The notes below the pieces were generated by a model, which searched no databases, was not told where the DNA came from, and saw only the letters and a list, made by a program, of their open reading frames with translations. A stretch of DNA of 64,000 bases from Verrucomicrobiota bacterium (GTDB lineage Bacteria; Verrucomicrobiota; Verrucomicrobiia; Limisphaerales; JADLHS01): the NCBI GenBank assembly GCA_029573725.1, contig JAKQDQ010000178.1, positions 186,001-250,000 on the forward strand, written 5' to 3'. Below, piece after piece: positions 15,706 through 56,407 of the stretch. The translations under genes were made by a program, and so were the position numbers. Position 1 is the stretch's first letter. The number at the start of each line of letters is the position of its first letter.

Positions 15706-16212
15706 CTAAACGGCCGCCGGGGCCAGCGTGATGCTTTCAATGTGCACCCGCGTCACGGGCCGGTCGCCGGCGCCCGTCCGGGTGGTGGCGATCTTCTCCA
15801 ACACGTCGTCGCCCTGGATCAAACGGCCGAACGCCGTGTATTGCCGGTCCAGGAACCGCGCGTCCGCGTGGCAGATGAAAAACTGCGAACCGGCCGAATC
15901 CGGATCACTGGCGCGCGCCATGGAAAGCACCCCGCGCACATGCGGCTGGTCGTTGAACTCCGCTTTGATCTGGTAACCTGGACCGCCGGTGCCCCACCGG
16001 TGCTGCTGGCTCTCCTCCCGGGTCAACGGATCCCCGCCCTGGATCATGAAGTTTTTGATCACGCGATGGAAACATGTGCCGTTGTAAAAGCCCTGCTGCG
16101 CCAGCTGCTTGAAATTTTTGACATGCCCGGGCGCCACGTCCGGCCAGAATTCCAGGCGCATTTCGCCGACGGAGGTTTTGATGATGGCAATTTCGTCCAT
16201 GAGAACAGGCAT
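15706..16212 (-). CDS. Cytoplasmic peptidyl-prolyl cis-trans isomerase (cyclophilin)
   Basis: 168 residues, a single cyclophilin domain with no signal peptide. Catalytic and core motifs are CFHRVIKNFMIQGGDP (with the active Arg), AEFNDQPHVRGVLSMARA and GSQFFICHA. It speeds folding at proline bonds in the cytoplasm. The next gene upstream, five bases away, encodes an exported paralogue with the same domain, evidence of tandem duplication. Confidence 0.93.
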   Translation of the reverse strand: MPVLMDEIAIIKTSVGEMRLEFWPDVAPGHVKNFKQLAQQGFYNGTCFHRVIKNFMIQGGDPLTREESQQHRWGTGGPGYQIKAEFNDQPHVRGVLSMARASDPDSAGSQFFICHADARFLDRQYTAFGRLIQGDDVLEKIATTRTGAGDRPVTRVHIESITLAPAAV

Positions 16213-16217
16213 TCGAG

Positions 16218-16832
16218 TTATTTGAGGGAATCCGCCGGAACGATTTTGATGCTTTCGATGTTCATGCGTCTGACCGGGCGGTCCGGGCCCTCGGTCGGTG
16301 TGGTGGCGATTTTATCGAGCACGTCCTCGCCTTTGATCAACTTGCCGAAAACGGTGTATTGATGGTCCAACTGCCGGGGGCTGCCGTGACAGATGAAAAA
16401 TTGGGAACCGGCGGAATTGGGGTCGGGCGTGCGGGCCATGGACAACGTGCCGCGCACGTGCGGTTTGTCGTTAAACTCGGCCTTGATGGTGTAGCCGGGG
16501 CCGCCCTGGCCCCAAAGACCTTTCTTGCCGTCATCCTTGGAATTCGGATCGCCCGCCTGAATCATGAAACCTTTGATGACCCGGTGGAAACATTGACCAT
16601 CGTAAAACCCGGCCTTGGCGAGCTTCTTGAAATTCTCGACGTGGTTCGGGGCAACGTCGGGAAAGAACTCGACCACCATGACACCTTCGCTGGTAGTGAT
16701 GACCCCCACTTCTTTGGCGGAGGCCGCTTCCTGTTTCGCCGCGGTTGGGGCGGCGGGCGGATTGGTTTCCGCTGCGATTCCCAAGGTGGCACTCACAAGC
16801 AGGACGAACGCGCCATAGCACACATTTCTCAT
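16218..16832 (-). CDS. Exported peptidyl-prolyl cis-trans isomerase (cyclophilin)
   Basis: 204 residues. A signal peptide (MRNVCYGAFVLLVSATLGIAAE) is followed by an Ala/Pro linker and a cyclophilin domain: CFHRVIKGFMIQAGDP, AEFNDKPHVRGTLSMARTPD, GSQFFICHG. It should act in the periplasm. I chose the ATG at 16830-16832 because the signal peptide begins there. The longer frame up to 16907 would bury the signal in a non-protein-like extension. It is the first of the two tandem paralogues. Confidence 0.92.
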   Translation of the reverse strand: MRNVCYGAFVLLVSATLGIAAETNPPAAPTAAKQEAASAKEVGVITTSEGVMVVEFFPDVAPNHVENFKKLAKAGFYDGQCFHRVIKGFMIQAGDPNSKDDGKKGLWGQGGPGYTIKAEFNDKPHVRGTLSMARTPDPNSAGSQFFICHGSPRQLDHQYTVFGKLIKGEDVLDKIATTPTEGPDRPVRRMNIESIKIVPADSLK

Positions 16833-17093
16833 AGCGGCGCGAGAATTCCACGAATGTCCCACAAAGTCACGCGCAGAATTGCGGCCGCCCGGAGGTGGCG
16901 GTCTCATCCGGATGCTTCACGGAGACCGGACCGGGCCTGCAAACCATCCTCGCGCGGCGCGCGGCGCCGGCCACGCCTTCCACACGACACCCGCCTCCCC
17001 GCGCAAATCGGACGGCCGCGTCCGAACGCGCACCCCTGACCGTGCGTCGGTGCGAGGCAACTCAAACTGCGGGGGAACGGGCGTGCAACCGCC

Positions 17094-18071
17094 CTAAAAC
17101 AGGTTTCCGGCCAGGATGCCCAGCACGCTGAGCGGGCCCTGATCTTCCAGGCCTTCGGTCATCTTGTCCACCTTTTGCAGGGTGAGCTTGGCGTTCCGGT
17201 AAAACTCCTGTTCGTTGACCAGTTTGCCGATGGTGCCCTGGCCGTGGTTGATTTTTTCCAGAATTTCCTTCAGATTCACCATGGAGGCGGTGGTCTCGTT
17301 GTAGAGCGCCTCGTCTTTGATCAGTTTCCCAATCGTTCCCTGACCGCTGTTGACGTCGCGGATGATCTGGTTGGCGTCGCCCAGCGCGGATTTGATTTCA
17401 TCGCCGGTGGATTGCAGGTTGGAAATGGTGTTCAGCGCCGTGGTGTAAAGCGTCTCGTCAAAGATGAGCCTGCCAATGGTGCCTTTGCCCGCGGCGATCT
17501 GGGCCGAGGTGCTGCTCAGGTTGGAGATGGTCTGGGTCAGGGGCGTGCGATTGTCCTGGATGAAGCCGATGAGGGGTCCAAACAGACTGTCAATTTTGTC
17601 GCCGGTGAAGCTCTTGGTCAGGTTCTCCACGCCGGTGGCCACGTTGTCCAGTTTTTGCATGATCGCGCCCAGGTCCGGCTGTTCAACGGTGTTCAACTGG
17701 GTGCCTTCGGTCGCCAGCGGCGCGGTCTCCGAGCCGAATTGCAGGGCCACAAAATTCTGTCCCATCAGGCCGGCGAACTGGATGCGGGCGATGGTGTCCG
17801 TCTTGACCGGCGCGTTGGGATGCAGCCGCATGATGACGCGCACCTTGTTCTGTTCCGGAGCCAGGAGGATTTTTTCAACCGTGCCGACCTCCACGCCGGC
17901 CATCTTGACGCGGTCGCCCAGCTTGAGTTCCTGGACGGATTTGAACAGGGCTTCCACGCGCAGGCCCCCGCTGAATTTCTCAAAGCCGCCGAGAATGAAC
18001 ATGATGAAGAAGGCCGCCACGACGATCAGGGCGACAAACAGGCCAAGCCGGGTTTCCAGGGAGTTTTTCAT
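17094..18071 (-). CDS. mlaD: MlaD-like MCE-domain lipid-transport protein
   Basis: 325 residues: one N-terminal transmembrane helix (LGLFVALIVVAAFFIMFILGG), an MCE domain at about 35-120 (VQELKLGDRVKMAGVEVGTVEKI...AGLMGQNFVAL), then a long helical tail. In the tail, three copies of a unit G(K/Q)GTIG(K/R)L(I/V)x(D/E)ExxY occur at roughly 190-285. MCE proteins form periplasmic rings that carry phospholipid between the membranes. The tail repeats may make a tunnel or a ring-stacking surface (inference). The start overlaps the end of the ATPase gene by ATGA. Confidence 0.9.
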   Translation of the reverse strand: MKNSLETRLGLFVALIVVAAFFIMFILGGFEKFSGGLRVEALFKSVQELKLGDRVKMAGVEVGTVEKILLAPEQNKVRVIMRLHPNAPVKTDTIARIQFAGLMGQNFVALQFGSETAPLATEGTQLNTVEQPDLGAIMQKLDNVATGVENLTKSFTGDKIDSLFGPLIGFIQDNRTPLTQTISNLSSTSAQIAAGKGTIGRLIFDETLYTTALNTISNLQSTGDEIKSALGDANQIIRDVNSGQGTIGKLIKDEALYNETTASMVNLKEILEKINHGQGTIGKLVNEQEFYRNAKLTLQKVDKMTEGLEDQGPLSVLGILAGNLF

Positions 18072-18835
18072 AAGTTTGAGGGGTCCAGTTTGAAGTCGGC
18101 GTTGAGAAAGTTGCGGATGATGGGCAGCGGACTGGCCTTGATTTCCTCGGGGACGCCCAGGGCCACGATCCGCCCCTCATGCAGAATGGCGAGGCGATGC
18201 CCAATGCCAAACGCCAGGTCGCGATCATGCGAAACCACAATCGAGGTCACCCCCGTGCGCTGGTTCAACTTCCGAATCTCCTCACCCACCACGACCGAGG
18301 ACAGCGGATCAAGCTCGCTGGTCGGTTCATCATAAAGAATGAGCTGCGGCTCGCTGACGAGCGCCCGGGCGATGGCGGCGCGCTTCTTCATGCCGCCCGA
18401 CAGCTCGCCGGGCATCTTGTTTTCCGTCCCCTTCAAGCCGACGACGTCCAGCTTCTCGGTCACGATGCGGGCAATCTCCGCCGGGGGTTTCAGCCGGTGC
18501 TCCCGCAAATATAGCCCCACATTTTCCCCAACCGTCAGGGAATTCAGCAGGGCGCCGGATTGAAACACCATGGCCAGCCGGTAGCGATCCGCCACTGCGG
18601 GCGTCTGAATGGATTCGCCGTTGATCAGGATCTCCCCGGCATCCGGCTGTTCCAGGCCGATCAGGTGCCGCAGGAGGACGCTTTTGCCGCTGCCGCTCGG
18701 TCCCATGATGACAAAAATTTCCCCCGGCAGGACGTCGAGGTCAATGCCCTGAAGCACTTCCTGTGTTCCGTAATGGCGGCGCAATCCGCGCACTTGCACG
18801 GCAACGCCCGGTTGCGTGGAGGAGGTGGCGCTCAT
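18068..18835 (-). CDS. mlaF: MlaF-like ABC transporter ATPase
   Basis: 255 residues. It powers the Mla-type lipid transporter on the cytoplasmic side. Walker A is GPSGSGKS at 45-52, the signature is LSGGMKKRAAIARAL, Walker B is LILYDEPTSELDP, and the switch His is in VVSHDR. The LSGGM(K/R)KR form is typical of the MlaF/Mkl subgroup. The start at 18833-18835 overlaps the MlaE stop (ATGA), and the stop overlaps the MlaD start, so the three proteins are made together. Confidence 0.94.
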   Translation of the reverse strand: MSATSSTQPGVAVQVRGLRRHYGTQEVLQGIDLDVLPGEIFVIMGPSGSGKSVLLRHLIGLEQPDAGEILINGESIQTPAVADRYRLAMVFQSGALLNSLTVGENVGLYLREHRLKPPAEIARIVTEKLDVVGLKGTENKMPGELSGGMKKRAAIARALVSEPQLILYDEPTSELDPLSSVVVGEEIRKLNQRTGVTSIVVSHDRDLAFGIGHRLAILHEGRIVALGVPEEIKASPLPIIRNFLNADFKLDPSNL

Positions 18836-19593
18836 TTCAAAATGCCGAAGCTGCCCAGCACCACGAAGAGGCGGGTCAGGGCAAAATCCGAAATCACGAT
18901 CAACACAATCGCGTTCACCACCGCCTTGGTAACCGAGCGGCCAATGCCCCGGGGGCCCCCGCGCGTGACCAGGCCCTGGTGACAGGCCACAATGCCGACG
19001 ATCCACGCGAAGCAGAAGCCCTTGAACACACCGTGGGCCACATCCTTCAACGCCACCATGGCCTTGAGGTTTTCAAAAAATGATTGCAGCGGAATGTCAA
19101 TCTCCGCCGTCAGCCGCGCCACCACCGCGCCGCCGAGCCAGGCCACCAGAATCGAGAACGTCACCAACATGGGAAGGGCCACGGTGATGGCCACGAGGCG
19201 GGGCAGCACGAGGTAATGGATCGGGTTGATGTTCATGGTGCGCAGCGCGTCAATTTCCTGATAGACGCGCATCGAGCCGATCTCCGCCGCCATCGCCGAA
19301 CCAATGCGACCGGCGATCAAAATTGCCATCATGATGGGGGCCAGTTCGCGGGCGACGGAAAAGCCCACGATGCCGCCGACGTAATTGGCCAGCCCGCGCT
19401 CGACCATGGTGGGCCCGGTTTGCAGGGTCAGCACGCCGCCGATGAAGAAGGAGAGCACGGTGACCATCAGCAGACTGGCATTGCCGATTTCAAAGCACTG
19501 GTCCAGCACCTTGTCGCGCTGTCGCCACGTCAGGGGCAACGCGCGGAGCGTCTGCCAGAAAAGCAGCACCATTTCACCGATGTTCTGAAACAT
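18832..19593 (-). CDS. mlaE: MlaE-like lipid-transport permease
   Basis: 253 residues with about five membrane segments, for example LMVTVLSFFIGGVLTLQTG, LAPIMMAILIAGRIGSAMAAEIG (the family hallmark) and VNAIVLIVISDFALTRLFV. It forms the inner-membrane core with MlaF and MlaD. I start it at the ATG 19591-19593, which gives the usual family N terminus and a 20-base overlap with the gene upstream. An ATG at 19668 would add 25 residues that do not look conserved. Confidence 0.9.
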   Translation of the reverse strand: MFQNIGEMVLLFWQTLRALPLTWRQRDKVLDQCFEIGNASLLMVTVLSFFIGGVLTLQTGPTMVERGLANYVGGIVGFSVARELAPIMMAILIAGRIGSAMAAEIGSMRVYQEIDALRTMNINPIHYLVLPRLVAITVALPMLVTFSILVAWLGGAVVARLTAEIDIPLQSFFENLKAMVALKDVAHGVFKGFCFAWIVGIVACHQGLVTRGGPRGIGRSVTKAVVNAIVLIVISDFALTRLFVVLGSFGILK

Positions 19594-21337
19594 GCGCGGA
19601 TCGTGTTGAGGAGGCGTTGCGAGGTAGGTAAAAGAGCCGCCACCGCCGGTTCGCTCCCGTGGATTCATACTGAAAAAGACCGAAAAGGAGCGAGATTTTT
19701 TTGGTCGGCGGCGCAAAGGGCGTCACCGGTGGCAACTCCGGGCCACCGGGGGCCGCGCCGGTTGCGGACAGGCCCGCGAGGGCGGAAAGGAAATTTCCGG
19801 AGCCCGCCGGCGGCGGGGGCGGCGGCGCGGGCGCTGCGAAAACGGGCGCGGGGACGACTTCCCGGCGAAAGAGATTCCACAGGAACGACTGGGAACTCGC
19901 CCCGGTCTCCGGATTGGTCTCGGCCCGCCACAAACTCCACAACGGGGAATAATTGCGCTCGATGCTTTTGCTGGCCGGCAGGATCGGCTCCAGCGGCGCC
20001 AGCAGCTGAAGACGGGTACGGCCCTGAAAATCCCGCTGATGCGTGAACCAGGGCCAGAGATCGGTCCGGGTGCGCGCCCGCCCGGTCCCACGATTTGCTT
20101 CATGCGTGTGCGAAAACAAAAAGAAAAAGGAGCGGGTACGCCGCCGGTCCAGGTCTGCCTCCGCAGTGCGTTTGTAGGTGTACGCCGGCCAGAGATAGAA
20201 ATTGCTTTCCAAAGCCCTGGTGCGCGCCCGGCTGAACAGCGGCCAGACGCGGCGGGTGGTCTTGCCTTCGCCCCAGGCAAAGACGATCAAGGGCCACGGA
20301 CAATCCACCTCGTGATATTCCCGGGCGCGATCCTCGGTCAGGGTGAGGCCAAAGGGCGTCAGATAGCTGGTCGAATCGCGCTGCGGCGAACGCAGGCGGT
20401 GGTAGAAGGGAAAACAGAGCAGCTCCGTCGCCGGATTCGTGGTGCCGATGTCGCGATGCTGATGCTCATAAAAAGGCCAGAGGAAGAATTGTTTGTCGTG
20501 CCCGGGGATTTGCTCCACCTCGCCCCAATCGTTCGTGAGGAGCGAGATGCTTTGGTGTTCCGTGCCGAACCATGGCCAAAACTGCCAGCCGAACAGCGCA
20601 TCGCCGTACCGCAGGTGGAAGAACGGACAGAGAAAATTAAACGTCGTGACCTCCCCTTGCCGTGGTTGCAGCCAGGAGATGTCCGGAGCGGGCGACAACA
20701 CCTGATCCGAACCCGTCAGGGCGCGGCGTTTGACGGTTTTGACGTAAAGCGGCCAGAGCGCAAAATCAATTTCACTGCGGAAAAGCCGGTTTTTCAAATG
20801 ACCGTAAAAGGGAAACAGCGCCGTGTAGTTCTGGTTGGTGTCGGGCGAGCGCTGCTGGAAATAGAGCGGAAACAAGGTGAACCGATGCCGCGCCGCGTCG
20901 GCTTGCGTCTGGCCGCCCGAGAAGTTCAACAACTGGAACAATTGCCAGCGATACTCCTCGCCAAAGCGGTCGTACGTCAGCAGCGGATACGCAAAATCGT
21001 ATTCGGTGGCGTGGCCATCCACCCAGTCGGTGTAGGAAAACAACGGCGGCAGCGCCCAGGTGTGCGCGAGTTCGCCGCGATGTTCGTAGAAGAACGGACC
21101 GCCCGCCTCGGTGCGGAAACCGGACTCCAGCGTCAACGGGGAACGATCAAACCCGAAACCGGCATGGATGGGGTTCGTCTGCCCCACCGCCGGGCCCACA
21201 AGGAAAACGCCGAGCCACCGGGCGACGCGCAAAAACCCGGGCTGGCGCCAGTGACGGCCGCACCGAATGCGCCGGGAAAGCCCCCCGGCGCCGCGGGAAG
21301 AAAATTGGGTGGAGCGTTGACTTTGAAGTGCGCTCAT
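19574..21337 (-). CDS. Aromatic-repeat (WPLY/FPFY) protein of the lipid-transport operon
   Basis: 587 residues of no named family known to me. An N-terminal hydrophobic segment (LGVFLVGPAVGQ) looks like a signal peptide. Residues 70-470 contain many repeats built around short aromatic cores: FTLFPLYF, ALFPFYGH, FALWPLYV, FFLWPFYE, LLCFPFYH, RRVWPLFS, NFYLWPAY, DLWPWF. These are spaced by charged turns, as in strand-turn-strand units. The C-terminal 100 residues are Pro/Ala-rich. The alternating pattern and aromatic girdle suggest an outer-membrane or periplasmic beta structure (inference). Its place between MMPL and MlaE suggests a role in lipid export. Its end overlaps mlaE. Confidence 0.65.
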   Translation of the reverse strand: MSALQSQRSTQFSSRGAGGLSRRIRCGRHWRQPGFLRVARWLGVFLVGPAVGQTNPIHAGFGFDRSPLTLESGFRTEAGGPFFYEHRGELAHTWALPPLFSYTDWVDGHATEYDFAYPLLTYDRFGEEYRWQLFQLLNFSGGQTQADAARHRFTLFPLYFQQRSPDTNQNYTALFPFYGHLKNRLFRSEIDFALWPLYVKTVKRRALTGSDQVLSPAPDISWLQPRQGEVTTFNFLCPFFHLRYGDALFGWQFWPWFGTEHQSISLLTNDWGEVEQIPGHDKQFFLWPFYEHQHRDIGTTNPATELLCFPFYHRLRSPQRDSTSYLTPFGLTLTEDRAREYHEVDCPWPLIVFAWGEGKTTRRVWPLFSRARTRALESNFYLWPAYTYKRTAEADLDRRRTRSFFFLFSHTHEANRGTGRARTRTDLWPWFTHQRDFQGRTRLQLLAPLEPILPASKSIERNYSPLWSLWRAETNPETGASSQSFLWNLFRREVVPAPVFAAPAPPPPPPAGSGNFLSALAGLSATGAAPGGPELPPVTPFAPPTKKISLLFGLFQYESTGANRRWRLFYLPRNASSTRSAHVSEHR

Positions 21338-21387
21338 TTAGTCTGAGGGTCGCGTCGGCGTGGTCGGCGTGGAGTTGATTCTTTCAT
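21334..21387 (-). CDS. Possible 17-residue linking ORF between two operon genes
   Basis: A 17-codon frame (basic, rich in Arg and Pro) starts with an ATG overlapping the MMPL stop as ATGA and ends with a TGA overlapping the ATG of the aromatic-repeat gene as ATGA. This exact double overlap would let ribosomes pass from one gene to the next. A functional peptide is not shown; it may be only a coupling device or chance. Confidence 0.3.
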   Translation of the reverse strand: MKESTPRRPRRRDPQTK

Positions 21388-24218
21388 CTCGGTTCCTCTC
21401 GACCCAGTGGTGATTGTGCATTGTCACCACTGGGTTGATTCCTTTCCGCATGGCGTCGGAGCAACAGCGTCAGCAGCGCGGGCAGAAACGTCAATGCCAC
21501 GATCATGCAGGCGGCCACGCCGATGGCCATCACCAGGCCGAGACTGGCGATGCCGCGGTGCTTGGCCACCATCAAACTGCCGAACCCGGCGATGGTGGTC
21601 AGTCCGGACACCAGAACCGCCTTGCCCGTGCTCTTGGCGAGGATGCTGGGCGTGCGTTCCTCGGCGAAGCGGTTCAGAATGTGGATGCCGTTGGTCACCC
21701 CAATGCCCAGCACGAGCGGGAGCAACATGATGTTGGCCGGGTTTAACGCAATGTGGAAACCACCCATGACGCCGGCCAGCCACAGGCTGCCAATCGCCAC
21801 CGGCAACAAGGCCAGAATCACCGAACCCAGGCTGCGGAAATGGACCAGGATCAGCAACGCGATGGCGGCCAGTGAATAGAGCGCGGCGTGTTCGTAACTG
21901 ACCTTCAACAGGGTGATGTATTCCAACAACTGCACCGGCGTGCCGGTCACGTCCGGATCAAGGGTGCGCAGTTGGTCAACAAATTCCTTCTGGTGCGCAT
22001 GCTGCCAGACGTCTTTTTTGGGATAGATTTGCAGCAGATATTTGCGCCCCCCGGCCCCCACAAAGCGGTCGCGGATGGTTGCCGGCAAGTCGGCGATGCG
22101 CAGCCGCCCGCGAGTGTCCTGCTGCTTCAACGCCGCAAAGGTGTCACGCAAATCCTCGAACAGGGCGCGCTGATAATTTCCAAGTTTGCGGGCTGCCTGC
22201 GCCTGTTGTTCGGCGTCGCCGCGCAGCATTTCGACCCGTAGTTTCTCGATCACCCGCCCCAGGGCGACCAGGTGCCGGCTGGTTTCGGAACCGGGGTCAT
22301 TGATTTCCTGGGCCGCCAGTTTGGTGAATCCGCTCAACGCAAACAGGCTGCGGCTCAGGTCGGCCAGTTGCACCGGATGGTCATCCGGCGGCCGAAAATG
22401 CAGGGATTGCACGTCGGCCTTGATTTCGCGGATCAAATGGAGCTTGCGGGTGGCGTCGTCGGCCAGCAGGGGCGCAATGGATTCCACCCGCGCCACGGAG
22501 TCCAGCGCCTCCACCCGTTGTTGCAATGCCACCGCGTTGGTGAGGGAATCGGTGATCATGACCGCAAACAGCACCGAACGCCCCGGTTCGTTGGTCCCGG
22601 TTGCGGAAGCGGCACCGGACGTGGCGTGCAACAGTTTGTCCTGAAATTCCACCGCCGGCAGCCCTGCGCTCTGCAGATGGAGCAGATTGTAGTCAAAAAA
22701 CACTTTCGGCGCCTGGGTGGCGCCGGCCAGCGAGAGACCCACGACGACCAGGATTGTGCCGAGGGGGCGCTGCAACCAGAACTTTTCCAGATGGACAACA
22801 CGCGCCGGTTGAGGGGACTCGGTCCGGTCCAGCACATTTTGCCGCCCTCGCAACAACCACACGGGCAACAGAGTGGTCATGGGCACTAGGCACACCAGCA
22901 GACCGCCGCCGCAGATGATGCCCATCTCCTGGATGCCGCGAAAATCCGTGAACGCCATGGCCAGAAACGCGCCGGCGGTGGTCAGCGCTCCGGTGAAAAT
23001 CCCCTGTCCGGTAAAGACCAGCGCCAGCGTGATGGCTTCCTCCTGCGCCCGGCCGCGCCGCAATTCCTCCTCATAGCGCGTGACCAGATGCACACCGAAA
23101 TCAATCGCCAGCCCGATGAGGATCGGCACGAACGTAATGGTGAGGATGTTCAAGTGGCCAATGACGAGCGTGGTGAAACCCAGGGTGTAGCCGATGCCCA
23201 CAATCAAACACGCCGTGGCCTTGAGCGGCCGGCCGGTCTGGTGATACCCGTAGATGAAGATCAACGCGCAGATAACAAGCGAAATCAGACTGGCCAGCGT
23301 GGTGTCCTGTTGCGATTGCCGCAGCTCGTCCAGTTCCAGCACCGACTCGCCGGTAAGCCCGACATTGACCCCGGGCACCTCGAACTGGGTTTCCGCGATC
23401 AACTGCCGCATGCGCCGGATGGCTTCGTGGTTCCAATCGCCGCGCAGTGGTTGCGCCGTGAGCAGATAGATCTGGCCCCCCGCGTAGGTGAGGTAAATGC
23501 TCTGCTCCGCCTCCGCGCTGGCGTCGAAGAGCGCAAACACGCCCGGGGACGGCGGCACACCGGCGCGCTGCAATGACGCCGTGGCTTGCGCGAGGATGCG
23601 CTGCAGGGCCGGCAACGCCCCGACCAGCGCGTCATTTTCCGCGCTGGCCTCCGGCCGGGCGTTGGCGAATCGCCGGTTGATCAGGTTGATGAGGGAAACC
23701 AGATTCGAGGTCTGCGTAAACGGCTGGATGAGCGGACGGTAGGCCTCGAGCGTCTTTTGCAGTTCCACCAGCTTGTCCTCGGAAACAAACAGCAGCGCTT
23801 TGCTGCCCAACATCTTCAAGTCGCCCTTGTAGAAAATCCGCGTGTAGAGGTTGGTTTCCTGGCCGGCCGGAACGCCCGGCCGGTCCGGCACGACGATTCT
23901 CGCCGCCTCCACCCTGGCCCCCAAGCGCTCAATGAATTGGCGGTTTTTCTCGGGATTATCGCTTTCGACGATCACCGCCAGATCGTCCTGTACGGCGAAG
24001 TCCTTTTTATATTGAAGAAAGTTGTGATGATACCGCTTGTTCGCACCCACCAGGGTGCTGCGGTTGGTGTCAAACTGGAGGTGGGTGGCCGTGTAATAGC
24101 CGCAGGCCACAAACAGGATCAATTGTGGAATGACCACCCAACGGGGACGTTGAATCACCCAGCGCGCCCAGCCCGTTAAAAACCGGGCGAACAACGTCTC
24201 GGGAGCGGGGGAATTCAT
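21384..24218 (-). CDS. MMPL/RND-family lipid exporter
   Basis: 944 residues with two similar halves, each with one leading membrane helix, a large periplasmic domain and a five-helix sterol-sensing-like bundle. The N-terminal helix is VVIPQLILFVACGYYT. Bundles contain LTITFVPILIGLAIDFGVHLVTRYEE and IMLLPLVLGIGVTNGIHILNRF, matching MMPL permeases of the hopanoid-transporter (HpnN) type. It probably uses the proton gradient to move a hydrophobic lipid across the inner membrane. It heads the operon leading to the aromatic-repeat gene and mlaEFD. The end of the coding region carries a perfect inverted repeat. Confidence 0.85.
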   Translation of the reverse strand: MNSPAPETLFARFLTGWARWVIQRPRWVVIPQLILFVACGYYTATHLQFDTNRSTLVGANKRYHHNFLQYKKDFAVQDDLAVIVESDNPEKNRQFIERLGARVEAARIVVPDRPGVPAGQETNLYTRIFYKGDLKMLGSKALLFVSEDKLVELQKTLEAYRPLIQPFTQTSNLVSLINLINRRFANARPEASAENDALVGALPALQRILAQATASLQRAGVPPSPGVFALFDASAEAEQSIYLTYAGGQIYLLTAQPLRGDWNHEAIRRMRQLIAETQFEVPGVNVGLTGESVLELDELRQSQQDTTLASLISLVICALIFIYGYHQTGRPLKATACLIVGIGYTLGFTTLVIGHLNILTITFVPILIGLAIDFGVHLVTRYEEELRRGRAQEEAITLALVFTGQGIFTGALTTAGAFLAMAFTDFRGIQEMGIICGGGLLVCLVPMTTLLPVWLLRGRQNVLDRTESPQPARVVHLEKFWLQRPLGTILVVVGLSLAGATQAPKVFFDYNLLHLQSAGLPAVEFQDKLLHATSGAASATGTNEPGRSVLFAVMITDSLTNAVALQQRVEALDSVARVESIAPLLADDATRKLHLIREIKADVQSLHFRPPDDHPVQLADLSRSLFALSGFTKLAAQEINDPGSETSRHLVALGRVIEKLRVEMLRGDAEQQAQAARKLGNYQRALFEDLRDTFAALKQQDTRGRLRIADLPATIRDRFVGAGGRKYLLQIYPKKDVWQHAHQKEFVDQLRTLDPDVTGTPVQLLEYITLLKVSYEHAALYSLAAIALLILVHFRSLGSVILALLPVAIGSLWLAGVMGGFHIALNPANIMLLPLVLGIGVTNGIHILNRFAEERTPSILAKSTGKAVLVSGLTTIAGFGSLMVAKHRGIASLGLVMAIGVAACMIVALTFLPALLTLLLRRHAERNQPSGDNAQSPLGREEPR
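21402..21435. repeat. 12-bp perfect inverted repeat at the 3' end of the MMPL gene
   Basis: ACCCAGTGGTGA at 21402-21413 and TCACCACTGGGT at 21424-21435, separated by ten bases. It lies within the last codons of the MMPL gene. In RNA it would form a strong hairpin just before the stop codon, with no U-run after it, so an attenuator or RNA-stabilising role fits better than a terminator. Confidence 0.7.
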
Positions 24219-24236: not shown

Positions 24237-24581
24237 TCATGCGGGCGCGTTCGCTTCCACCACGGCGGCCGTGCCGTAGCAGATGACCTCGGTGATGCCC
24301 GATCCGATTTCCGTCGCGTCGTAGCGCACTCCCAGCACGGCATTGGCGCCAAGAGCCCCGGCATGCGCGAGCATCAGATTGAACGCCTCCTCGCGCGTCC
24401 GCTCGCACAGATCGGTGTAAATGGTGATGTTGCCGCCGAACAGGGTTTGAATGCTGGCGCCGAAATTCCCAATCACCGAACGCGAGCGCACCACGACGCC
24501 GCGCACGACACCCAGCGATTTGGTGGTCCGGAAACCCGGCAATTCGAACGCCGTCGTGGTCAATGGATGGGTTTGGTTCAT
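24237..24581 (-). CDS. YbjQ/UPF0145 heavy-metal-binding-domain protein
   Basis: 114 residues, full length for the family. The pattern [66 protein letters not shown] and [10 protein letters not shown] matches YbjQ-like proteins, which form pentameric beta-sandwich rings of unknown function. It precedes the MMPL gene by only 18 bases on the same strand, so it may be the first gene of the lipid-export operon. Confidence 0.9.
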
Positions 24582-30767: not shown

Positions 30768-32464
30768 GCGGGTCGGGCGATCAGATCGTAATCGGTATGA
30801 CCGATGATTTTTACGCGCGCAAACTCGCCGGCCGGCAGATCGCCCCGCAGGTACACACGCCCGTCAATATCCGGGGCATCCGCCTCGCCGCGCGCGACCA
30901 GAAATTCGCCGGCCGGCAGCCTGGGCGCAGGAACCGCATTGGCGCGAATCAACCCGTGTTCCCATGAGCTGAGGTTCGCGGCGGTGAGCTGCCTGGCGCT
31001 GGCCCGGCCTTCAATCAACACCTTGAGGGTGCGGCCCACGAATGATTCCGAGATTTCCCTGGCGATTTTATGCTGGGCGGCCATCGCCGCTTTGCGCCGC
31101 TGCTGCTTGACCCGGGCGGCAACCTGGCCGGCCATCCCTCCCGCGCGGGTCCCCATCTGCTGTGAATAGGCAAAAATCCCCAACCGTTCAAATCTGGCCG
31201 CACCAATAAAATCCACCAATTCGTCAAAGCAAGCCTTGGTCTCGCCCGGAAAGCCAACGATGAACGTTGTGCGCAGCGCGATGCCGGGAATGCCCGCGCG
31301 GATTCGCCTGAGCAAATCAATGATGTACTGTTGGGAAGTTTCGCGCCGCATGCGCTCCAGCATGTTGTCATGAATATGCTGCAGCGGAATATCCACATAA
31401 CGCGCCACTTTGGAGCACTCCCGGATGGTTTGAATCAGCTCCTCCGTCCAATGTGCGGGATGAGTATAGAGCAGCCGAATCCAAAAATCTCCGGGCAAGG
31501 CGTTCAATGCGCGCAGCAGCGTGCAAATCGTGGTCGCGTTTGCCGGCAGTGATTGGGCCGCGGCGCTGAATCGTTCCGGCGAAGAAATTGCTCGCCGATG
31601 ATCCGGGCGCAGGTCCAGACCGTAGTAGGTCGAGTCCTGGGAGATTAAATTCAGCTCCCGCACCCCGGCGGCCAGGAGCGCCCGGGCCTCTGCCACAATA
31701 TCCGTCTGCTCGCGGCTGCGGTGGGATCCCCGCATGCGGGGAATCAAGCAAAAACTGCACGGATGATTGCAGCCCTCGGCAATTTTAATGTACGCAAAGT
31801 GTTTGGGGGTCAGCCGGAAACGCGGTGTGGCATAATCCGGAATATACGTTGGCCGCGAGGTTACCTCGAGGATGGGAGCGGCAGACGCATGGAAGTATTG
31901 CCGCGCACCGTTCCCGGAGAGAACCGTCCGCGTCTTCCCGAATTTATCGGTGCCACGGAGGGATGGTTCATGCGCCTGGCCGCGTTCCCGCCGGCCTTCC
32001 AGCCGGGCAAGTTGTGCCGTAATTCGGGTCTGCCGCGCCCGGCTTGTGGGACGCCGGCCATTGATTTTTTCACTTCGATGCTGATGCGCCAGGCGAACGA
32101 TCTGGGCCACTTGCGCAACTTGGTCGATGCCCATGAACACGTCCACCTCGGGGAAGAGTTGGGGCAGCTCCTCCCGAAACCGCTGGGAAAGACAGCCCGA
32201 GACAATCAAACCCTGCTGGCGATTGCTGACTTCGCGCACCGCAGCAGACTCAAGGATGGCCTCCACACTCTCTTCCTGTGCCGAATCAATGAAGGAACAC
32301 GTATTGACGATCACCACATCCGCTTGAACCGGATCGTTGGTGACTTCAACGCCGTCTTTCAGCAGCGCGCCAAGCATGACTTCAGCGTCCACAAGATTTT
32401 TTGCACACCCCAATGAAATCAACCCGACTTTTAAGGGTTGGACAGGTATAGATGTTTCCGTCAC
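30764..32464 (-). CDS. rimO: Ribosomal protein S12 methylthiotransferase RimO with large insertions
   Basis: 566 residues, over 100 more than typical RimO (about 440). The N-terminal MTTase domain has Cys20, Cys56 and Cys91 (ISLGCAKNLVDAE, VNTCSFIDSA, VSGCLSQR). The radical-SAM motif is CNHPCSFC at 232-239. A C-terminal TRAM-like domain ends near FARVKIIGHTDYDL. Two extra segments interrupt the normal layout: residues 130-205 (very Arg-rich, between the first two domains) and residues 285-312 (within the SAM domain). It methylthiolates an Asp of S12. Coupled to pgsA by ATGA. Confidence 0.93.
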   Translation of the reverse strand: MTETSIPVQPLKVGLISLGCAKNLVDAEVMLGALLKDGVEVTNDPVQADVVIVNTCSFIDSAQEESVEAILESAAVREVSNRQQGLIVSGCLSQRFREELPQLFPEVDVFMGIDQVAQVAQIVRLAHQHRSEKINGRRPTSRARQTRITAQLARLEGRRERGQAHEPSLRGTDKFGKTRTVLSGNGARQYFHASAAPILEVTSRPTYIPDYATPRFRLTPKHFAYIKIAEGCNHPCSFCLIPRMRGSHRSREQTDIVAEARALLAAGVRELNLISQDSTYYGLDLRPDHRRAISSPERFSAAAQSLPANATTICTLLRALNALPGDFWIRLLYTHPAHWTEELIQTIRECSKVARYVDIPLQHIHDNMLERMRRETSQQYIIDLLRRIRAGIPGIALRTTFIVGFPGETKACFDELVDFIGAARFERLGIFAYSQQMGTRAGGMAGQVAARVKQQRRKAAMAAQHKIAREISESFVGRTLKVLIEGRASARQLTAANLSSWEHGLIRANAVPAPRLPAGEFLVARGEADAPDIDGRVYLRGDLPAGEFARVKIIGHTDYDLIARPA

Positions 32465-33025
32465 CGTGCAAAGCGTACGTCAAAAAAAACAGGGTGGCAA
32501 TCTTGGCGACCGACCGACAATTGATACACTCAAGAACTGTGGCGTGAATATGGAAGCCCAATCCTGCCTGGAGACCCCGCTTCGCATTCCATGTGAACAC
32601 CAAAAGAAGGTGACCGTGGTGGAGACCGCCTAACGACAGGATAACGTTCCAACCCGGGCTTCGCCTGAGGGGATACAACAGGTATTTAGCTGACGCCTGA
32701 CATGGTCGGAATTACATTCTCATAGCAGATGAAAGATTCGATTGGAGATGACGTTCATGTTAAAAATTATGACTTTTAATCTTATTTCGATTAAATGGCG
32801 ACTTTTCTAAAAGTTTCATTGCAATAGGAGTCGTCGCGTCATTGTCGTTTGTAATCGCATCACGATTCAAAGACCTGACTAGTTCTAAGAAGTTTGGAGA
32901 AACGACGTTTGTATTTTTGTTGTAACCTATTTGCTACAAGTTTGTTGTGCATTGTTTAACTTGATATACTTCTCGACTTAGCATGGGAATGTTTGCGGCT
33001 CAGAGTTTTAGATAATTTCCAAACC
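32465..33025. other. 561-base intergenic region, becoming AT-rich from about 32700
   Basis: The left part (32465-32650) has ordinary composition and only a 27-codon frame without a ribosome site. From about 32700 the DNA becomes strongly AT-rich with runs such as TTAAAAATTATGACTTTTA. No protein frame and no clear tRNA are seen. It contains the mnmG promoter at its right end. It could hold a replication origin element because mnmG follows, but I found no close TTATNCACA boxes. Confidence 0.5.
32942..32970 (+). promoter_or_regulatory. Sigma-70-type promoter for mnmG
   Basis: TTGTTG at 32942-32947, 17 bases, TATACT at 32965-32970. The -10 matches five of six consensus bases; the -35 is weak. 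It lies 55 bases upstream of the mnmG start. Confidence 0.5.
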
Positions 33026-34933
33026 ATGTTCAATTACTCTAAAGAATACGATGTAATTGTAGTTGGCGCAGGACACGCAGGAATTGAGGCCGCGTTGGCT
33101 GCAGCAAAGATCGGCGCTCAAGTGTTGCTTGTAACTTCGAATGTGGACACGGTTGGTCAAATGTCCTGCAATCCATCTATCGGTGGGTCGGCAAAAAGCC
33201 ATTTGGTCCGAGAGATAGATGCGCTCGGAGGTGAAATTGGGAGGACAACAGATATAACAGGAATTCAATTCCGGACTTTAAATAAAAGTAAGGGGCCGGC
33301 TATTTGGGCAACGCGCGCTCAATGCGACAAAAAGGCATATCAATTCCGGATGAAATGGATTTGCGAACGGCAAATAAATTTAGATTTAAAACAAGAGCAA
33401 GTCGTTTCCTTTGAAACCAAAGGCCGCAAGATTATAGGAATTACTACGGCCAACCAAACGAGATATTTAGGGAAAACGGTTATAATTACAACGGGAACAT
33501 TTCTGCACGGATTAATCCACATTGGAAAAACTCGACAAGGTGGCGGACGATCAGGAGAAATGCCGTCTATTGGAATATCTGAGTCACTAAAAGCACTCGG
33601 ATTGAATTTAAAGCGCCTAAAAACAGGAACTCCACCGCGAATTTTGAGGAGTTCGATTGATTTTTCTAAGACCGAGGAGCAACCAGGAGATACTCCACCA
33701 CCACTCTTCAGCTTCTGGCCTCATGATATGTTCCACGTGGAACAAGAGCGGATTTGTCATTGTGCCACACTGAACAATAATTTTCCGGCAACCTCGATTC
33801 TTCAGCGGGTCGGAAAGCAATTAAGTTGTTTCCTCACAAAAACAACGCCCCAGACTAAAGAGATTATCAAAGAGAATTTGCATCTGTCACCAATGTACAG
33901 TGGGCAGATCGAAGGTATTGGTCCGAGATATTGCCCATCTATTGAAGATAAAATTGTAAAGTTTTCGGAAAAGGAGACCCACCATATTTTTCTCGAACCT
34001 GAAGGAATTGAGACCGATGAGTTCTATCTAAATGGACTTTCTACGTCTCTTCCCTACCAAGTGCAGGTTCAATTAGTACGATCAGTAGTTGGATTGGAGA
34101 ATGCAGAAATACTTCGACCGGCTTATGCCGTAGAATATGATTTTGTGCCGCCGAATCAGATTTTCCCGTCTCTTGAAAGCAAAATATGCGAAAACTTGTT
34201 TTTGGCCGGTCAAATCAACGGAACTTCCGGATATGAAGAGGCTGCGGCTCAGGGCCTGATTGCCGGCATGAATGCTGCCAGACGATGCATAAATAAACCT
34301 CCGGTAATTTTAAAGCGCAATGAGGCCTATATCGGCGTCATGATTGATGACCTCATCAATGTAGAAATTAAGGAGCCGTATCGCGTATTCACGTCACGTG
34401 CAGAATATCGTTTATTGCTGCGCCAAGACAATGCTGACTTGCGCTTAAGCGAATTCGGATATGACATCGGGCTTCTGCCACGGGAACGATTTGATATCTT
34501 TCTTCGCAAGCGCAACACAATAACTCGTGAAATTGACAGATTAAATAATACGCGAATCGGATCAACTCCTCTTTCGCATCTCCTCCGCCGACCTGAAGTG
34601 AATTACCGTGATTTACCCGGTTTTGATAAGTCTCTGTCTCAAGATGTGATCGACGTAATTGAAGTCGAGATCAAGTATCAAGGGTATATTGAAAGGCAAC
34701 AGACCGAGGTACAAAAGCTTAAAAATATTGAAGGCAAACAAATTCCTAACTCGTTCAATTACGATGTGATATTAGGGTTGGGTAATGAAGCCCGTGAAAA
34801 TTTGCGGAATATACGACCGCTTTCACTTGGCCAGGCCGCCCGCGTTCCCGGTGTTTCGCCTACAGACATCGGATTAATTGCAATATGGCTTAAGCGAACC
34901 GAGGCAAGCGCGGGAGCAAGATCCGGGGACTAG
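33026..34933 (+). CDS. mnmG: tRNA uridine-34 carboxymethylaminomethyl synthesis protein MnmG (GidA)
   Basis: 635 residues. With MnmE it modifies U34 of several tRNAs; it binds FAD. N-terminal VVGAGHAGIEAALAAAKIGA binds FAD, MSCNPSIGGSAKSHLVREIDALGG and SPMYSGQIEGIGPRYCPSIEDK are family hallmarks, and GTSGYEEAAAQGLIAGMNAAR is also present. The catalytic Cys region TRAQCDKKAYQ is intact. Codon use is AT-rich and unlike neighbours. A segment around residue 235 (HDMFHVEQE) is encoded by a parS-type palindrome. The ATG at 33026 gives the standard N terminus; a TTG at 32993 is less likely. No mnmE, rsmG, parA or parB gene is adjacent. Confidence 0.95.
   Translation: MFNYSKEYDVIVVGAGHAGIEAALAAAKIGAQVLLVTSNVDTVGQMSCNPSIGGSAKSHLVREIDALGGEIGRTTDITGIQFRTLNKSKGPAIWATRAQCDKKAYQFRMKWICERQINLDLKQEQVVSFETKGRKIIGITTANQTRYLGKTVIITTGTFLHGLIHIGKTRQGGGRSGEMPSIGISESLKALGLNLKRLKTGTPPRILRSSIDFSKTEEQPGDTPPPLFSFWPHDMFHVEQERICHCATLNNNFPATSILQRVGKQLSCFLTKTTPQTKEIIKENLHLSPMYSGQIEGIGPRYCPSIEDKIVKFSEKETHHIFLEPEGIETDEFYLNGLSTSLPYQVQVQLVRSVVGLENAEILRPAYAVEYDFVPPNQIFPSLESKICENLFLAGQINGTSGYEEAAAQGLIAGMNAARRCINKPPVILKRNEAYIGVMIDDLINVEIKEPYRVFTSRAEYRLLLRQDNADLRLSEFGYDIGLLPRERFDIFLRKRNTITREIDRLNNTRIGSTPLSHLLRRPEVNYRDLPGFDKSLSQDVIDVIEVEIKYQGYIERQQTEVQKLKNIEGKQIPNSFNYDVILGLGNEARENLRNIRPLSLGQAARVPGVSPTDIGLIAIWLKRTEASAGARSGD
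33729..33744. other. parS-type ParB-binding palindrome inside mnmG
   Basis: TGTTCCACGTGGAACA, a perfect 16-base palindrome that fits the broad parS consensus TGTTNCACGTGNAACA. It is read in frame as part of MFHVEQ. ParB nucleates on such sites to segregate chromosomes, and they usually lie near the origin. It is the only such site I saw in the window. Confidence 0.8.
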
Positions 34934-34967
34934 TTAATAAAATAGTCCGATACAAGTGATTTAGTGA

Positions 34968-37121
34968 ATGATTTCGACGCTCGAGAACCAGCAATTGAAT
35001 GGCGACATCGTTGCGCTCACCACCGAGATTTTTTCGACATCCGGGGTGCTTGCCAACGCGAAGAATTTTGAATTCCGCCCTCAACAGCAACAAATGGCCG
35101 TGGCGGTAGCCAGGGCATTGCAGGAACAGCAGCATCTCGTGGCTGAAGCCGGAACTGGTGTTGGAAAATCTTTGGCCTACCTCATCCCGGCCATTCTTTT
35201 CGCCGTTCAATTCAAAAAGAAAGCCGTCGTTTCAACTCATACAATCAATCTTCAGGAACAGCTCGTGGAGAAGGACTTGCCAATGATCTCCACCGTCCTG
35301 GCGGCACTGCCGAAGGCCGTCCATTTTTCTTATACCATGTTGAAGGGGCGTGCGAATTATCTCTGTACACGACGCCTTCAAAAGGCAATTGCGCAAAGCA
35401 AAAATCTGTTCACTTCATCAGAAGCCCAGGAGTTGCAGCGCATCTACGAGTGGTCGAAGGAAACAGGCACCGGTAGCTTATCGGATTTCAGCATTGAGCC
35501 CGATCCGAAAGTTTGGGCGCAAGTGTGCTCAGAGCGCGGGCTCTGTTCACCAAAAATTTGCGGGTACCAATCAGATTTTGCCAGAGAGCATCCGCTTTGT
35601 TTCTTTCAAAAAGCGCGCAGTCGGATCCTGGCCGCGGATGTGTTGGTCTTGAACCATACGCTCTTTTTCACCCTGCTTGGCGGACTGGACGAGGAAAATT
35701 CGGATGGCGTGTTGTTCAAGAATGATTTCGTGATTTTTGATGAGGCGCACACTGTGGAACACGTGGCTTCGCGACACGTCGGGTTGAGTGTTTCCAGCGC
35801 TCAAATTCGTTGGTCGCTCAATCGCCTTTGGAACCCGAAAACTGGAAAGGGACTGTTGGCCACCTTGCGGCAGGGGAAAGCCGTGGAGCTGGTGGATGAA
35901 ACCCTGCATGCGGCCGACAACTTCTTCAGCAATGTGGAGACGGCATGTGAAGCATTACACCGCGGTTCAAAGTCGCAACAACCAACGTCGAATCCAAAGC
36001 CGACACACCGCACCTGGACCGAGTTGCGCATCCGTCGGACGCAGCTGGTGGCGGACAATCTCGCGCTGCCAATCCAGCGGTTGCGAGAGTCGGTCAGCGA
36101 TCTGATCAAAACCAGCGAGGACAAAGAAATCGGGCAGGAGCTGGTGGAATGCAACCGCCGGCTCGGAGAAATCAAATCGGAGATCACCGAATTCTTGAAT
36201 CATCAGGCCGAGGGCCATGTGTATTGGGTCGAACGCTCCGGAAAATCCCAGCAGAATCTTTCCCTCAATGCCGCACCAATCGACATTGCCCCCTTTCTGC
36301 GCCGCAGATTGTTTGGCAGCAATACGAGCATCATCATGACCAGCGCCACTCTCGCCACGACGAATCACTCCAGAAAAGAGGTCGAGGAGAGGCCCCCATC
36401 TGCCCGCGATTATCTGCCAAAATCCCCGACGTCAGACGGAAGTTGGGGTGGACTAGGATACTTTATGAGCCGCGTCGGAGCGGAGTCCGCTGTGCAGTTG
36501 CAGGTGGGCACGCCGTTTGATTATCAGCGGCAGATCAAATTATTCGTCGTGCGCAAAATTCCGGACCCGCGGGAAGCGGGTTTTGCGGATGCGTTGGAAC
36601 AATGGATCAAGCACTTTATCCGTCAGACCCACGGGAAAGCATTTGTTCTGTTCACCAACTTCAGACTGATGCAAACGCTGGGTGAGCGCCTGCAGCCCTT
36701 CTTCGAGGAGTTGGGGATCGCCTTGTTTGTGCAGGGCACGGGCACCCCGCGCTCGACCATGTTGGAGCAATTCAAGGACGACGTGAATTCGGTACTGTTT
36801 GGAACAGACAGTTTCTGGCAGGGCGTGGATGTACCGGGAGAAGCCTTGAGCAACGTCATCATCACCCGACTTCCATTTGCCGTCCCGGACCATCCATTGA
36901 TCGAGGCGCGCATCGAGGCCATCGAGGCGCGGGGCGGCAATTCATTCAGTGAATTTTCCCTGCCGGAAGCCATCTTGAAATTCCGTCAAGGGTTCGGGCG
37001 GCTGATCCGGACCAAAACGGACACCGGAATCGTGGTGGTACTCGATAGCCGCATTCTTGGGAAAAAATACGGCCGGGCCTTTCTGGAAGCGGTGCCCAAG
37101 TGTCCGGTGGAGATCGTGTAG
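34968..37121 (+). CDS. DinG/XPD-family ATP-dependent helicase
   Basis: 717 residues. Superfamily-2 helicase with an iron-sulfur cluster. Walker A is AEAGTGVGKSLAYL at about 58-71, and the DEAH box is FDEAHTVEH. Four Cys for a 4Fe-4S cluster are in YLCTRR and CSERGLCSPKICGYQ, with a further Cys in PLCFFQ. Helicase motifs continue with FVLFTNF, FGTDSFWQGVDVPGEAL and the final RQGFGRLIR. It unwinds DNA, probably in repair. It follows mnmG by 34 bases without a Shine-Dalgarno site. Base composition is intermediate between mnmG and the flanks. Confidence 0.88.
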   Translation: MISTLENQQLNGDIVALTTEIFSTSGVLANAKNFEFRPQQQQMAVAVARALQEQQHLVAEAGTGVGKSLAYLIPAILFAVQFKKKAVVSTHTINLQEQLVEKDLPMISTVLAALPKAVHFSYTMLKGRANYLCTRRLQKAIAQSKNLFTSSEAQELQRIYEWSKETGTGSLSDFSIEPDPKVWAQVCSERGLCSPKICGYQSDFAREHPLCFFQKARSRILAADVLVLNHTLFFTLLGGLDEENSDGVLFKNDFVIFDEAHTVEHVASRHVGLSVSSAQIRWSLNRLWNPKTGKGLLATLRQGKAVELVDETLHAADNFFSNVETACEALHRGSKSQQPTSNPKPTHRTWTELRIRRTQLVADNLALPIQRLRESVSDLIKTSEDKEIGQELVECNRRLGEIKSEITEFLNHQAEGHVYWVERSGKSQQNLSLNAAPIDIAPFLRRRLFGSNTSIIMTSATLATTNHSRKEVEERPPSARDYLPKSPTSDGSWGGLGYFMSRVGAESAVQLQVGTPFDYQRQIKLFVVRKIPDPREAGFADALEQWIKHFIRQTHGKAFVLFTNFRLMQTLGERLQPFFEELGIALFVQGTGTPRSTMLEQFKDDVNSVLFGTDSFWQGVDVPGEALSNVIITRLPFAVPDHPLIEARIEAIEARGGNSFSEFSLPEAILKFRQGFGRLIRTKTDTGIVVVLDSRILGKKYGRAFLEAVPKCPVEIV

Positions 37122-55356: not shown

Positions 55357-56283
55357 TCATTGTTTGCGTGCCGATGGTTTTCCGGTCGCCGGGCTTCCGG
55401 CCGGCAACTGCCGCGCCAGTTGGCGGGCCCGCTGGCCGACGATTTCCAGCAGACCCTGCAGGACGGGGGTCTGGCGCCCCTGCCAGAGCACGCCAAACGT
55501 CACCGGCTTGAATCCACGCAGGGGCAATACCCGCACATCCGGATAAAAATCCGCCTCCGGCAGTTGCACCGCCACCCCGATGCCGTAGCCGCGCGCCACA
55601 TATTCCTGGACCAGTTCAATGCTGCTGACCTCAATGCCCACGGGCCAGGCCACCCTCCTTCGGGCCAACCCCTCCTGCAGCGCCGATTGAATCAGCTCAT
55701 TGCTGGGCACCGTGATCAGGGAATCGGTAATTCGGTCCTGCGCCCACAACGCTTCCGCCGAGGCCAGAGGACTCGCTTTCGGCACCAATAAAGCCAGGGA
55801 AAGATCGAACATCGGCAGCGCGCGGATTCCGCCGGGCGGTTTGCCTCCCAGCAACCCGATCGCCAGATCGATCTCCTGATTTTGCAACCAGGCCAGGACC
55901 TCCGGATGGTAGCCCTCACGTAAAGACACCTTGAGTTTGGGAAAGGACCGTCGCAATTCCTGCAACATCTCCGGCAGAAAGCGGCGCAGGACCGTTTCCG
56001 AAGCGGCAATCCGCAAATGTTGGGAAATGCCGCCGCGCAACTTGTCGGCCATGAAACTCAGGTTGGTGAAGAAGGGTTTGCTGAAATCATACAACTCCTG
56101 GCCCGCCGCCGTCAGCGCAAACGGACGCCGGTGAAACAGGGTCACACCCAAAAATTCCTCGAGCTGGAGGATCTGCCCGCTCACGGCCGGCTGTTGGATG
56201 CCGTAGGGCATGTTCCGCACGGCGGAACTGATGCCGCCGTGCTTCGCCACGTAGTAGAATAATTCCAGATGATGGACGTTCAT
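55357..56283 (-). CDS. LysR-family transcriptional regulator
   Basis: 308 residues. N-terminal winged HTH: HHLELFYYVAKHGGISSAVR then QPAVSGQILQLEEFLGVTLF with the SQ.QL.LE-type recognition helix. The C-terminal domain has two alpha/beta lobes for effector binding (LRIAASETVLRRFLPEML, EIDLAIGLLGG). The effector is unknown. It faces the minor-pilin genes but has its own start; control of the adjacent genes is only a guess. Confidence 0.9.
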   Translation of the reverse strand: MNVHHLELFYYVAKHGGISSAVRNMPYGIQQPAVSGQILQLEEFLGVTLFHRRPFALTAAGQELYDFSKPFFTNLSFMADKLRGGISQHLRIAASETVLRRFLPEMLQELRRSFPKLKVSLREGYHPEVLAWLQNQEIDLAIGLLGGKPPGGIRALPMFDLSLALLVPKASPLASAEALWAQDRITDSLITVPSNELIQSALQEGLARRRVAWPVGIEVSSIELVQEYVARGYGIGVAVQLPEADFYPDVRVLPLRGFKPVTFGVLWQGRQTPVLQGLLEIVGQRARQLARQLPAGSPATGKPSARKQ

Positions 56284-56345
56284 TCGCGCTGGTTCCCCCG
56301 CCCGGCCCGGTCCGGCAGCGGTTGGATTTCCCCTGCCGCCAAACC

Positions 56346-56378
56346 AACCAGCCGAGCGGCGGTGGCCGTCGGCTGGTT
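56346..56378. repeat. 10-bp inverted repeat, possible weak terminator
   Basis: AACCAGCCGA at 56346-56355 and TCGGCTGGTT at 56369-56378 with a 13-base loop, between the coiled-coil gene end and the LysR start. A T-rich but broken tail follows leftward. A weak terminator or a regulator-binding site are both possible. Confidence 0.35.
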
Positions 56379-56407
56379 CGTGGCATCAGACCCTGGAAAC
56401 GCCCCGG

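Follow-up and report, generated by a model that had tools for sequence, protein, structure and literature searches.

A putatively exported aromatic-repeat protein encoded with mlaEFD in Verrucomicrobiota, a candidate outer-membrane-side partner of an Mla lipid transporter

The Mla system of Proteobacteria comprises MlaFEDB, MlaC, and MlaA with OmpC/F. A different arrangement is reported for Veillonella parvula, where MlaD bears its own outer-membrane barrel (PMC10665443). According to the same study the MlaD of the Planctomycetes-Verrucomicrobia-Chlamydiae (PVC) group lacks this barrel, which would leave the outer-membrane component unaccounted for in these bacteria. The study also mentions, in the context of barrel folding, as yet unidentified proteins. 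Here we analyze a window, i.e. a whole stretch of 64,000 nucleotides, from a Verrucomicrobiota bacterium of the order Limisphaerales (contig JAKQDQ010000178.1, positions 186,001 to 250,000), in which mlaE, mlaF and mlaD follow the gene for a protein of repeated aromatic units, termed here REP, and the gene for an MMPL permease. We propose, with a probability of about 0.6 for the explanation as a whole, that the Mla operon in the window is of a second kind, REP-mlaE-mlaF-mlaD with a long mlaD, in which REP would serve as the outer-membrane-side or trans-periplasmic partner of the Mla system, replacing both MlaC and MlaA.

Gene order and conservation of the REP-mlaEFD cluster

On the minus strand of the window the genes are arranged in the order MMPL, REP, mlaE, mlaF, mlaD, with all five frames open (Table 1). 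The start of mlaE lies over the stop of REP (overlap of 20 bases), the mlaE/mlaF and mlaF/mlaD overlaps are of the ATGA type and comprise 4 bases each, and a gap of 46 bases separates MMPL from REP. The presence of MlaE, MlaF and an MCE-domain MlaD in a single operon identifies the system as Mla, i.e. an MCE-type lipid ATP-binding cassette (ABC) transporter. The MlaD protein has a single MCE domain, which about 200 further residues extend at the C-terminal side, and no barrel family was matched in it in Pfam. Between MMPL and REP lies a 17-codon frame, which is joined to either gene by an ATGA overlap (its start codon with the stop of MMPL, its stop codon with the start of REP) and may encode a leader peptide or be due to chance.

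Of 57 relatives, counting the window's genome, 53 have REP, and a profile search found it in 171 of 387 Verrucomicrobiota genomes. The REP proteins of the window's order and those of another large family (f50) align with an hhalign probability of 100 (E 9.8e-73, 439 columns, 26% identity), and on the strength of this comparison they are one protein family. Of the genomes of the window's order that could be read for adjacency, 47 of 52 have REP immediately ahead of mlaE, as do all 45 loci that were readable in other orders and classes. These counts were made on fetched loci. Within the order all 53 REP-positive genomes were covered; of the 169 other REP-positive ones, 46 were, namely 28 top-scoring loci and 18 picked from the list before their neighbours were seen. 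Loci without room were left out, namely G017 (order) and G277 (elsewhere) for the adjacency of mlaE, and six order genomes as well as G144 and G423 (elsewhere) for that of MMPL. An MMPL gene stands ahead of REP in 33 of the 47 order genomes that could be read for it, but in none of the 44 such loci from other orders and classes. G003 and G005 (loci L135 and L136), two members of the same genus, lack MMPL here and have a YbjQ-like gene directly before REP; a YbjQ-family gene also precedes the operon in the window.

According to these adjacency counts the element common to the loci is REP; its main partner is mlaEFD, and MMPL is a second, lineage-specific one. The core is REP-mlaE-mlaF-mlaD and the MMPL pump is not part of it; among the loci examined MMPL is a facultative neighbour of REP, seen in the window's order only. 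An earlier note on this DNA, made from the sequence alone, had described five consecutive genes with overlaps, in which the repeat protein joins an MMPL pump to MlaEFD. The genes are indeed consecutive, with small overlaps (none between MMPL and REP), and the order REP-mlaEFD is conserved far outside the window's order. As REP also looks exported (see below), neither of the two findings that the note had named as refuting its reading, a gene order that is not conserved or a cytoplasmic repeat protein, was obtained. The inclusion of the pump in the joint system is not supported beyond part of one order.

The pump itself had been assigned to the hopanoid-exporter type. It matches TIGR03480 (HpnN) over residues 14-917 with 523 bits, below the cut-off of 751.85, and NF052374 with 293 bits (cut-off 1100), and it is also below the BstA cut-off; the HpnN chain 5khn_B in PDB is matched with E 3.5e-55. 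Squalene-hopene cyclase matches occur in 55 of 57 relatives. The assignment is compatible with both the HpnN likeness and the cyclase but falls short of the HpnN and BstA cut-offs; since the cyclase is nearly universal among the relatives its presence is uninformative, and we dropped it as an argument for a hopanoid linkage. We consider it very unlikely that, as the earlier note suggested, the operon serves mainly for hopanoid/MMPL export and has MlaEFD as a secondary neighbour. The HpnN-like character of the pump, the widespread cyclase and the three order genomes in which MMPL and REP occur together without mlaEFD (G019, G037, G022) speak for it, but MMPL falls short of the NCBI HpnN cut-off and is absent before REP in 14 of 47 readable order genomes. 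Elsewhere it is absent from this position in all 44 readable loci, and each of 45 loci there has mlaE next to REP. A system centred on MMPL was rejected on the same ground, i.e. for want of support outside the window's order.

The REP family has no Pfam or NCBIfam model and, by sequence, no solved relative. REP gave no match in Pfam (E up to 0.1) or NCBIfam (0.01), and its alignment gave none among PDB sequences (E up to 1). Six REP homologues gave no match in Pfam (E up to 1), and four of them, searched also against NCBIfam, gave a single chance match far below cut-off. No MORN repeat sequence (Pfam) was found in REP (E up to 0.1) or in the six homologues (E up to 1), and no plasmid-borne REP homologue among 72,556 records. 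A description of REP was not found in searches of the open-licence PMC literature, which is not proof of absence, and the words Mla, MlaE and MCE do not occur in the essential-genome paper on Verrucomicrobium spinosum (PMC12283558).

Table 1. Features of the REP-mlaEFD locus and its surroundings (positions in the window)
Feature	Position	Strand	Basis or remark
MMPL/resistance-nodulation-division (RND) permease, HpnN-like, 944 aa	21384-24218	minus	PF03176, E 4.6e-42
17-codon frame	21334-21387	minus	
REP, putatively exported aromatic-repeat protein, 587 aa	19574-21337	minus	open frame; no Pfam family
Proline/alanine-rich insert in REP	19706-19852	minus	mature residues about 444-492
MlaE permease	18832-19593	minus	PF02405, E 2.9e-71; TIGR00056 above cut-off
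MlaF ABC ATPase	18068-18835	minus	PF00005 (ABC_tran), E 5.7e-33
Long MlaD, 325 aa	17094-18071	minus	PF02470, E 6.1e-17, residues 36-113
Two cyclophilin-type peptidyl-prolyl isomerase genes	15706-16838	minus	tandem
YbjQ-family gene	24237-24581		
Region of low G+C	32001-36000		G+C down to 0.473
Region of A/T skew	56001-60000		A/T skew as far as -0.265

The isomerase genes listed in Table 1 lie downstream of mlaD.

Distribution of REP, MlaA and MlaC and the types of Mla operon

Among the same 387 genomes MlaE was found in 360, REP in 171, MlaA in 152 and MlaC in 47. REP and MlaA largely avoid each other: 154 genomes hold only REP, 135 only MlaA, 17 both and 81 neither (odds ratio 0.066, Fisher p 6e-28, uncorrected for kinship). 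The avoidance is also seen within the family f50, where REP alone is present in 25 genomes, MlaA alone in 9, both in one and neither in one (p 1e-6). REP occurs in 9 of the 47 genomes with MlaC. As a control, TamB was looked for in 40 genomes with REP and 40 with MlaA, and found in 19 and 15 of them, respectively (one match among the latter lies below the curated cut-off); this is no association, and TamB was rejected as a second gene avoided by REP. In the window's genome, which is 96% complete, there is no match to MlaA (PF04333) or MlaC (PF05494), nor to TamB (PF04357), a match to which is also lacking in 46 of 80 Verrucomicrobiota genomes. It does contain an LptD match, separate from REP, as well as three MlaE and three MlaD matches, which shows that further MCE systems are present in this genome. 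MlaA domains were also seen in frames of about 600-880 codons (loci L112-L115 and many genomes of families f67, f72 and f83), possibly a long type of MlaA; in the four loci read these frames are away from mlaE, and MlaC is absent from most such genomes.

Analysis of the loci reveals three arrangements of the mla genes. In seven loci mlaD is short and the genes are ordered mlaE-mlaF-mlaD-mlaC-mlaA; L117, an eighth such locus, has the same genes in a different order. The MlaD proteins of these eight loci have 148-177 aa, compared with 238-464 aa (median 327) in 41 REP loci, and the MlaD of the window, with 325 aa, is not of the short kind that marks the proteobacterial-type pathway. In the third arrangement mlaE and mlaF are accompanied by a long mlaD without adjoining REP or mlaC/mlaA (family f48 and others; L118, L132, L133).

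A tree of MlaE was calculated from 84 loci (60 with REP, 8 with mlaC/mlaA and 16 with neither), reduced to 83 proteins as L034 has no mlaE; it did not include additional loci of the order, repeat reads of genomes already represented, or loci that lack mlaE (among these L108 and L112-L116). The eight MlaC/MlaA-linked proteins form one separate group (Shimodaira-Hasegawa approximate likelihood ratio test, SH-aLRT, 93), while the 59 REP-linked ones need two changes. When four long-branched sequences are removed, the REP-linked proteins occupy one side of a branch (SH-aLRT 95), and with all sequences a single REP-linked clade is not rejected by the approximately unbiased test (p-AU 0.476). Judging from this tree, REP-mlaEFD is best seen as an old module rather than as the outcome of repeated one-gene swaps in place.

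The same tree raises the alternative that REP and mlaEFD are only old neighbours, and that the avoidance of MlaA is the lineage history of two ancient types of Mla operon. As the REP-linked and the MlaC/MlaA-linked MlaE group apart, the presence of REP would simply follow the type of operon that a lineage has kept, and the avoidance signal is much weaker by family than by genome. Against this, strict adjacency persists down to about 25% identity across several classes, and the REP and MlaA types still exclude each other inside family f50, which makes the alternative quite unlikely in our view.

Predicted export and fold of REP

REP looks exported, as 97 of 101 distinct homologues have a hydrophobic leader ahead of the domain, in agreement with the earlier suggestion of a non-cytoplasmic component. 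Seven of the 101 have a lipobox-like motif, the most lipoprotein-like being L075.

Two AlphaFold2 models were built from non-overlapping alignments, one for the window's REP (33 sequences; predicted local distance difference test score, pLDDT, 83.4; predicted template modelling score, pTM, 0.72) and one for the f50 REP of locus L041 (25 sequences; pLDDT 89.0, pTM 0.69). Both have 45 strands with a median length of 6 residues and agree on an open fold, so that REP is predicted to be a single-layer antiparallel beta-meander, or ribbon, of about 45 short strands. The WPLY and FPFY units which had drawn attention in the earlier note are real, and in the models they are the turns between strands. 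Hydrophobic turns (LWPLY, LFPFY, AWPFF) alternate with polar ones (GTTNP, SPQ, KG): with classes defined by hydrophobicity and by a turn pattern devised for the present analysis, 30 of 40 and 31 of 42 neighbouring turns alternate in the two alignments, compared with shuffled means of 19.9 and 20.1, and at most 0.0004 of the shuffled orders reach the observed count. From this alternation the WPLY/FPFY units would all lie along one edge of the ribbon, and the models suggest that this edge is hydrophobic and aromatic along nearly the whole protein, the other edge being polar. The strands themselves are not more amphipathic than shuffled ones (0.324 observed, 0.312 shuffled, 34% of shuffles as high). 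The window's REP carries in addition a proline/alanine-rich insert (Table 1), which most of the aligned relatives lack.

Structure comparison with VIA-align 2, a tool that calls Z of 7-8 typical for models without a clear match, gave for the second (L041) model the CPAP G-box (Z 11.4, 157 residues, 6.9 Å) and MORN1 (Z 10.7, 154 residues, 4.9 Å), and its six highest Z are all such open ribbons and not barrels. For the first (window) model the best match is ApoB100 (Z 9.4, 255 residues, 7.7 Å), followed by CPAP (Z 9.2); MORN/G-box-like shapes reach Z 7-9, and porins, TOM40 and LptD score below ApoB100 and CPAP. Foldseek gave no match below E 1e-3 for the first model, and none to MORN or G-box structures below this value for either model. 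The second model has nine matches below E 1e-3, but these are beta-rich chains of very great length whose TM-scores reach no more than 0.15, and we did not take them as relatives.

These comparisons bear on two other views of REP. It could be a true outer-membrane beta-barrel, LptD- or porin-like, with lipids passing through it, in which case the short strands would be an artefact of a shallow alignment. Such a barrel would agree with the export signal, with the aromatic C-terminal strand in which several distant homologues end, and with the weak alignments to TOM40, porins, BamA and LptD (Z 5-8). However, six residues are short for a membrane-crossing strand, and this median is found in both models; the amphipathicity of the strands does not exceed that of shuffles, and the six top Z of the better model are open ribbons (CPAP G-box, MORN1). 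A classical barrel was therefore demoted, on account of the short predicted strands and the missing inside/outside alternation, to an unlikely alternative.

Alternatively, REP might be a MORN-like scaffold for protein interactions, holding MlaD, MMPL or the envelope together without contact to lipid, as the best shape matches of the second model would suggest. The study PMC7725318 describes the MORN fold as a protein-interaction module, although the MORN1 studied there interacted with individual phospholipids. A scaffold leaves the avoidance of MlaA by REP unexplained, and the hydrophobic turn edge, which is conserved and runs through almost all of the protein, also speaks against it; we regard it as possible, though not probable.

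Proposed role of REP and comparison with known systems

In the mechanism that we favour, with REP as the partner of a long-MlaD system, MlaEF in the inner membrane would drive lipids, in either direction, through the hexamer of MlaD and the long extension that it bears, and REP would take the place of both the MlaC shuttle and the MlaA acceptor. It could be an acceptor anchored in the outer membrane, or a ribbon reaching across the periplasm. The spacing between beta-strands is about 0.48 nm, so 45 strands would span about 21 nm if the ribbon were straight, a length estimated from the number of strands. Lipid chains may be held along the hydrophobic edge, and in the window's order the MMPL pump would probably supply the same REP with a further lipid, which may be a hopanoid. 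The most specific form of this proposal, in which REP spans the periplasm and its continuous aromatic WPxY edge is a rail that guides lipid tails between the tunnel of MlaD and the outer membrane, derives from the models and is at present doubtful. If true, it would be a third way to close the outer-membrane end of Mla, after MlaC with MlaA and the barrel-bearing MlaD of Veillonella, and an HpnN-like pump would share the same ribbon in one order.

Several observations weigh against a role of REP as the stand-in for MlaC and MlaA. The avoidance is incomplete, as 17 of the 387 genomes hold both REP and MlaA and 81 neither, and it is weaker among the 81 families (both in 16, REP only in 39, MlaA only in 17, neither in 9; odds ratio 0.22, p 0.003). 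REP lies away from mlaE in five order genomes (G019, G037, G022, G042, G023), the first three being those in which MMPL and REP have stayed together, and locus L034 has REP but no mla gene within 5.5 kb downstream. A long MlaD does not require REP, given the loci that have the one without the other. The strands, lacking an inside/outside alternation above that of shuffles, give no direct sign of a lipid groove, and the overall bend of the ribbon is uncertain, with pTM of 0.72 and 0.69 and models built from 33 and 25 sequences.

A role as the partner of MlaEFD would nevertheless fit the gap in the PVC group, and REP is a candidate component to fill it in about 44% of the sampled Verrucomicrobiota genomes (171 of 387). 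As a stand-in for MlaC and MlaA it would show how these bacteria connect their two membranes.

Among proteins of similar shape, MORN1 and the TCP10/G-box ribbon of CPAP share with the modelled REP an open antiparallel meander of short strands, but no sequence relation was found, and REP differs in being putatively exported and in the aromatic WPxY turns on one edge. LptD and the AsmA-like TamB are, as REP may be, beta-rich envelope proteins that carry lipids. The likeness to LptD is limited to weak alignments (Z 5-6), and the window's genome has its own LptD and no TamB match. The window's MMPL protein resembles the RND lipid transporters HpnN and BstA, matching TIGR03480 and the HpnN structure in PDB, yet it lies below the HpnN, NF052374 and BstA cut-offs. 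With the proteobacterial Mla system the window has in common MlaE, MlaF and an MCE-domain MlaD in one operon and the presumed traffic of lipids between both membranes; it differs in the long MlaD, in the REP gene before mlaE, and in a genome without a match to MlaC or MlaA. The MlaEFD system of V. parvula, as described in PMC10665443, shares more with the window, with the same three-gene core, a long MlaD and neither MlaA nor MlaC; where its MlaD carries the outer-membrane barrel, however, the window encodes a separate, putatively exported protein next door.

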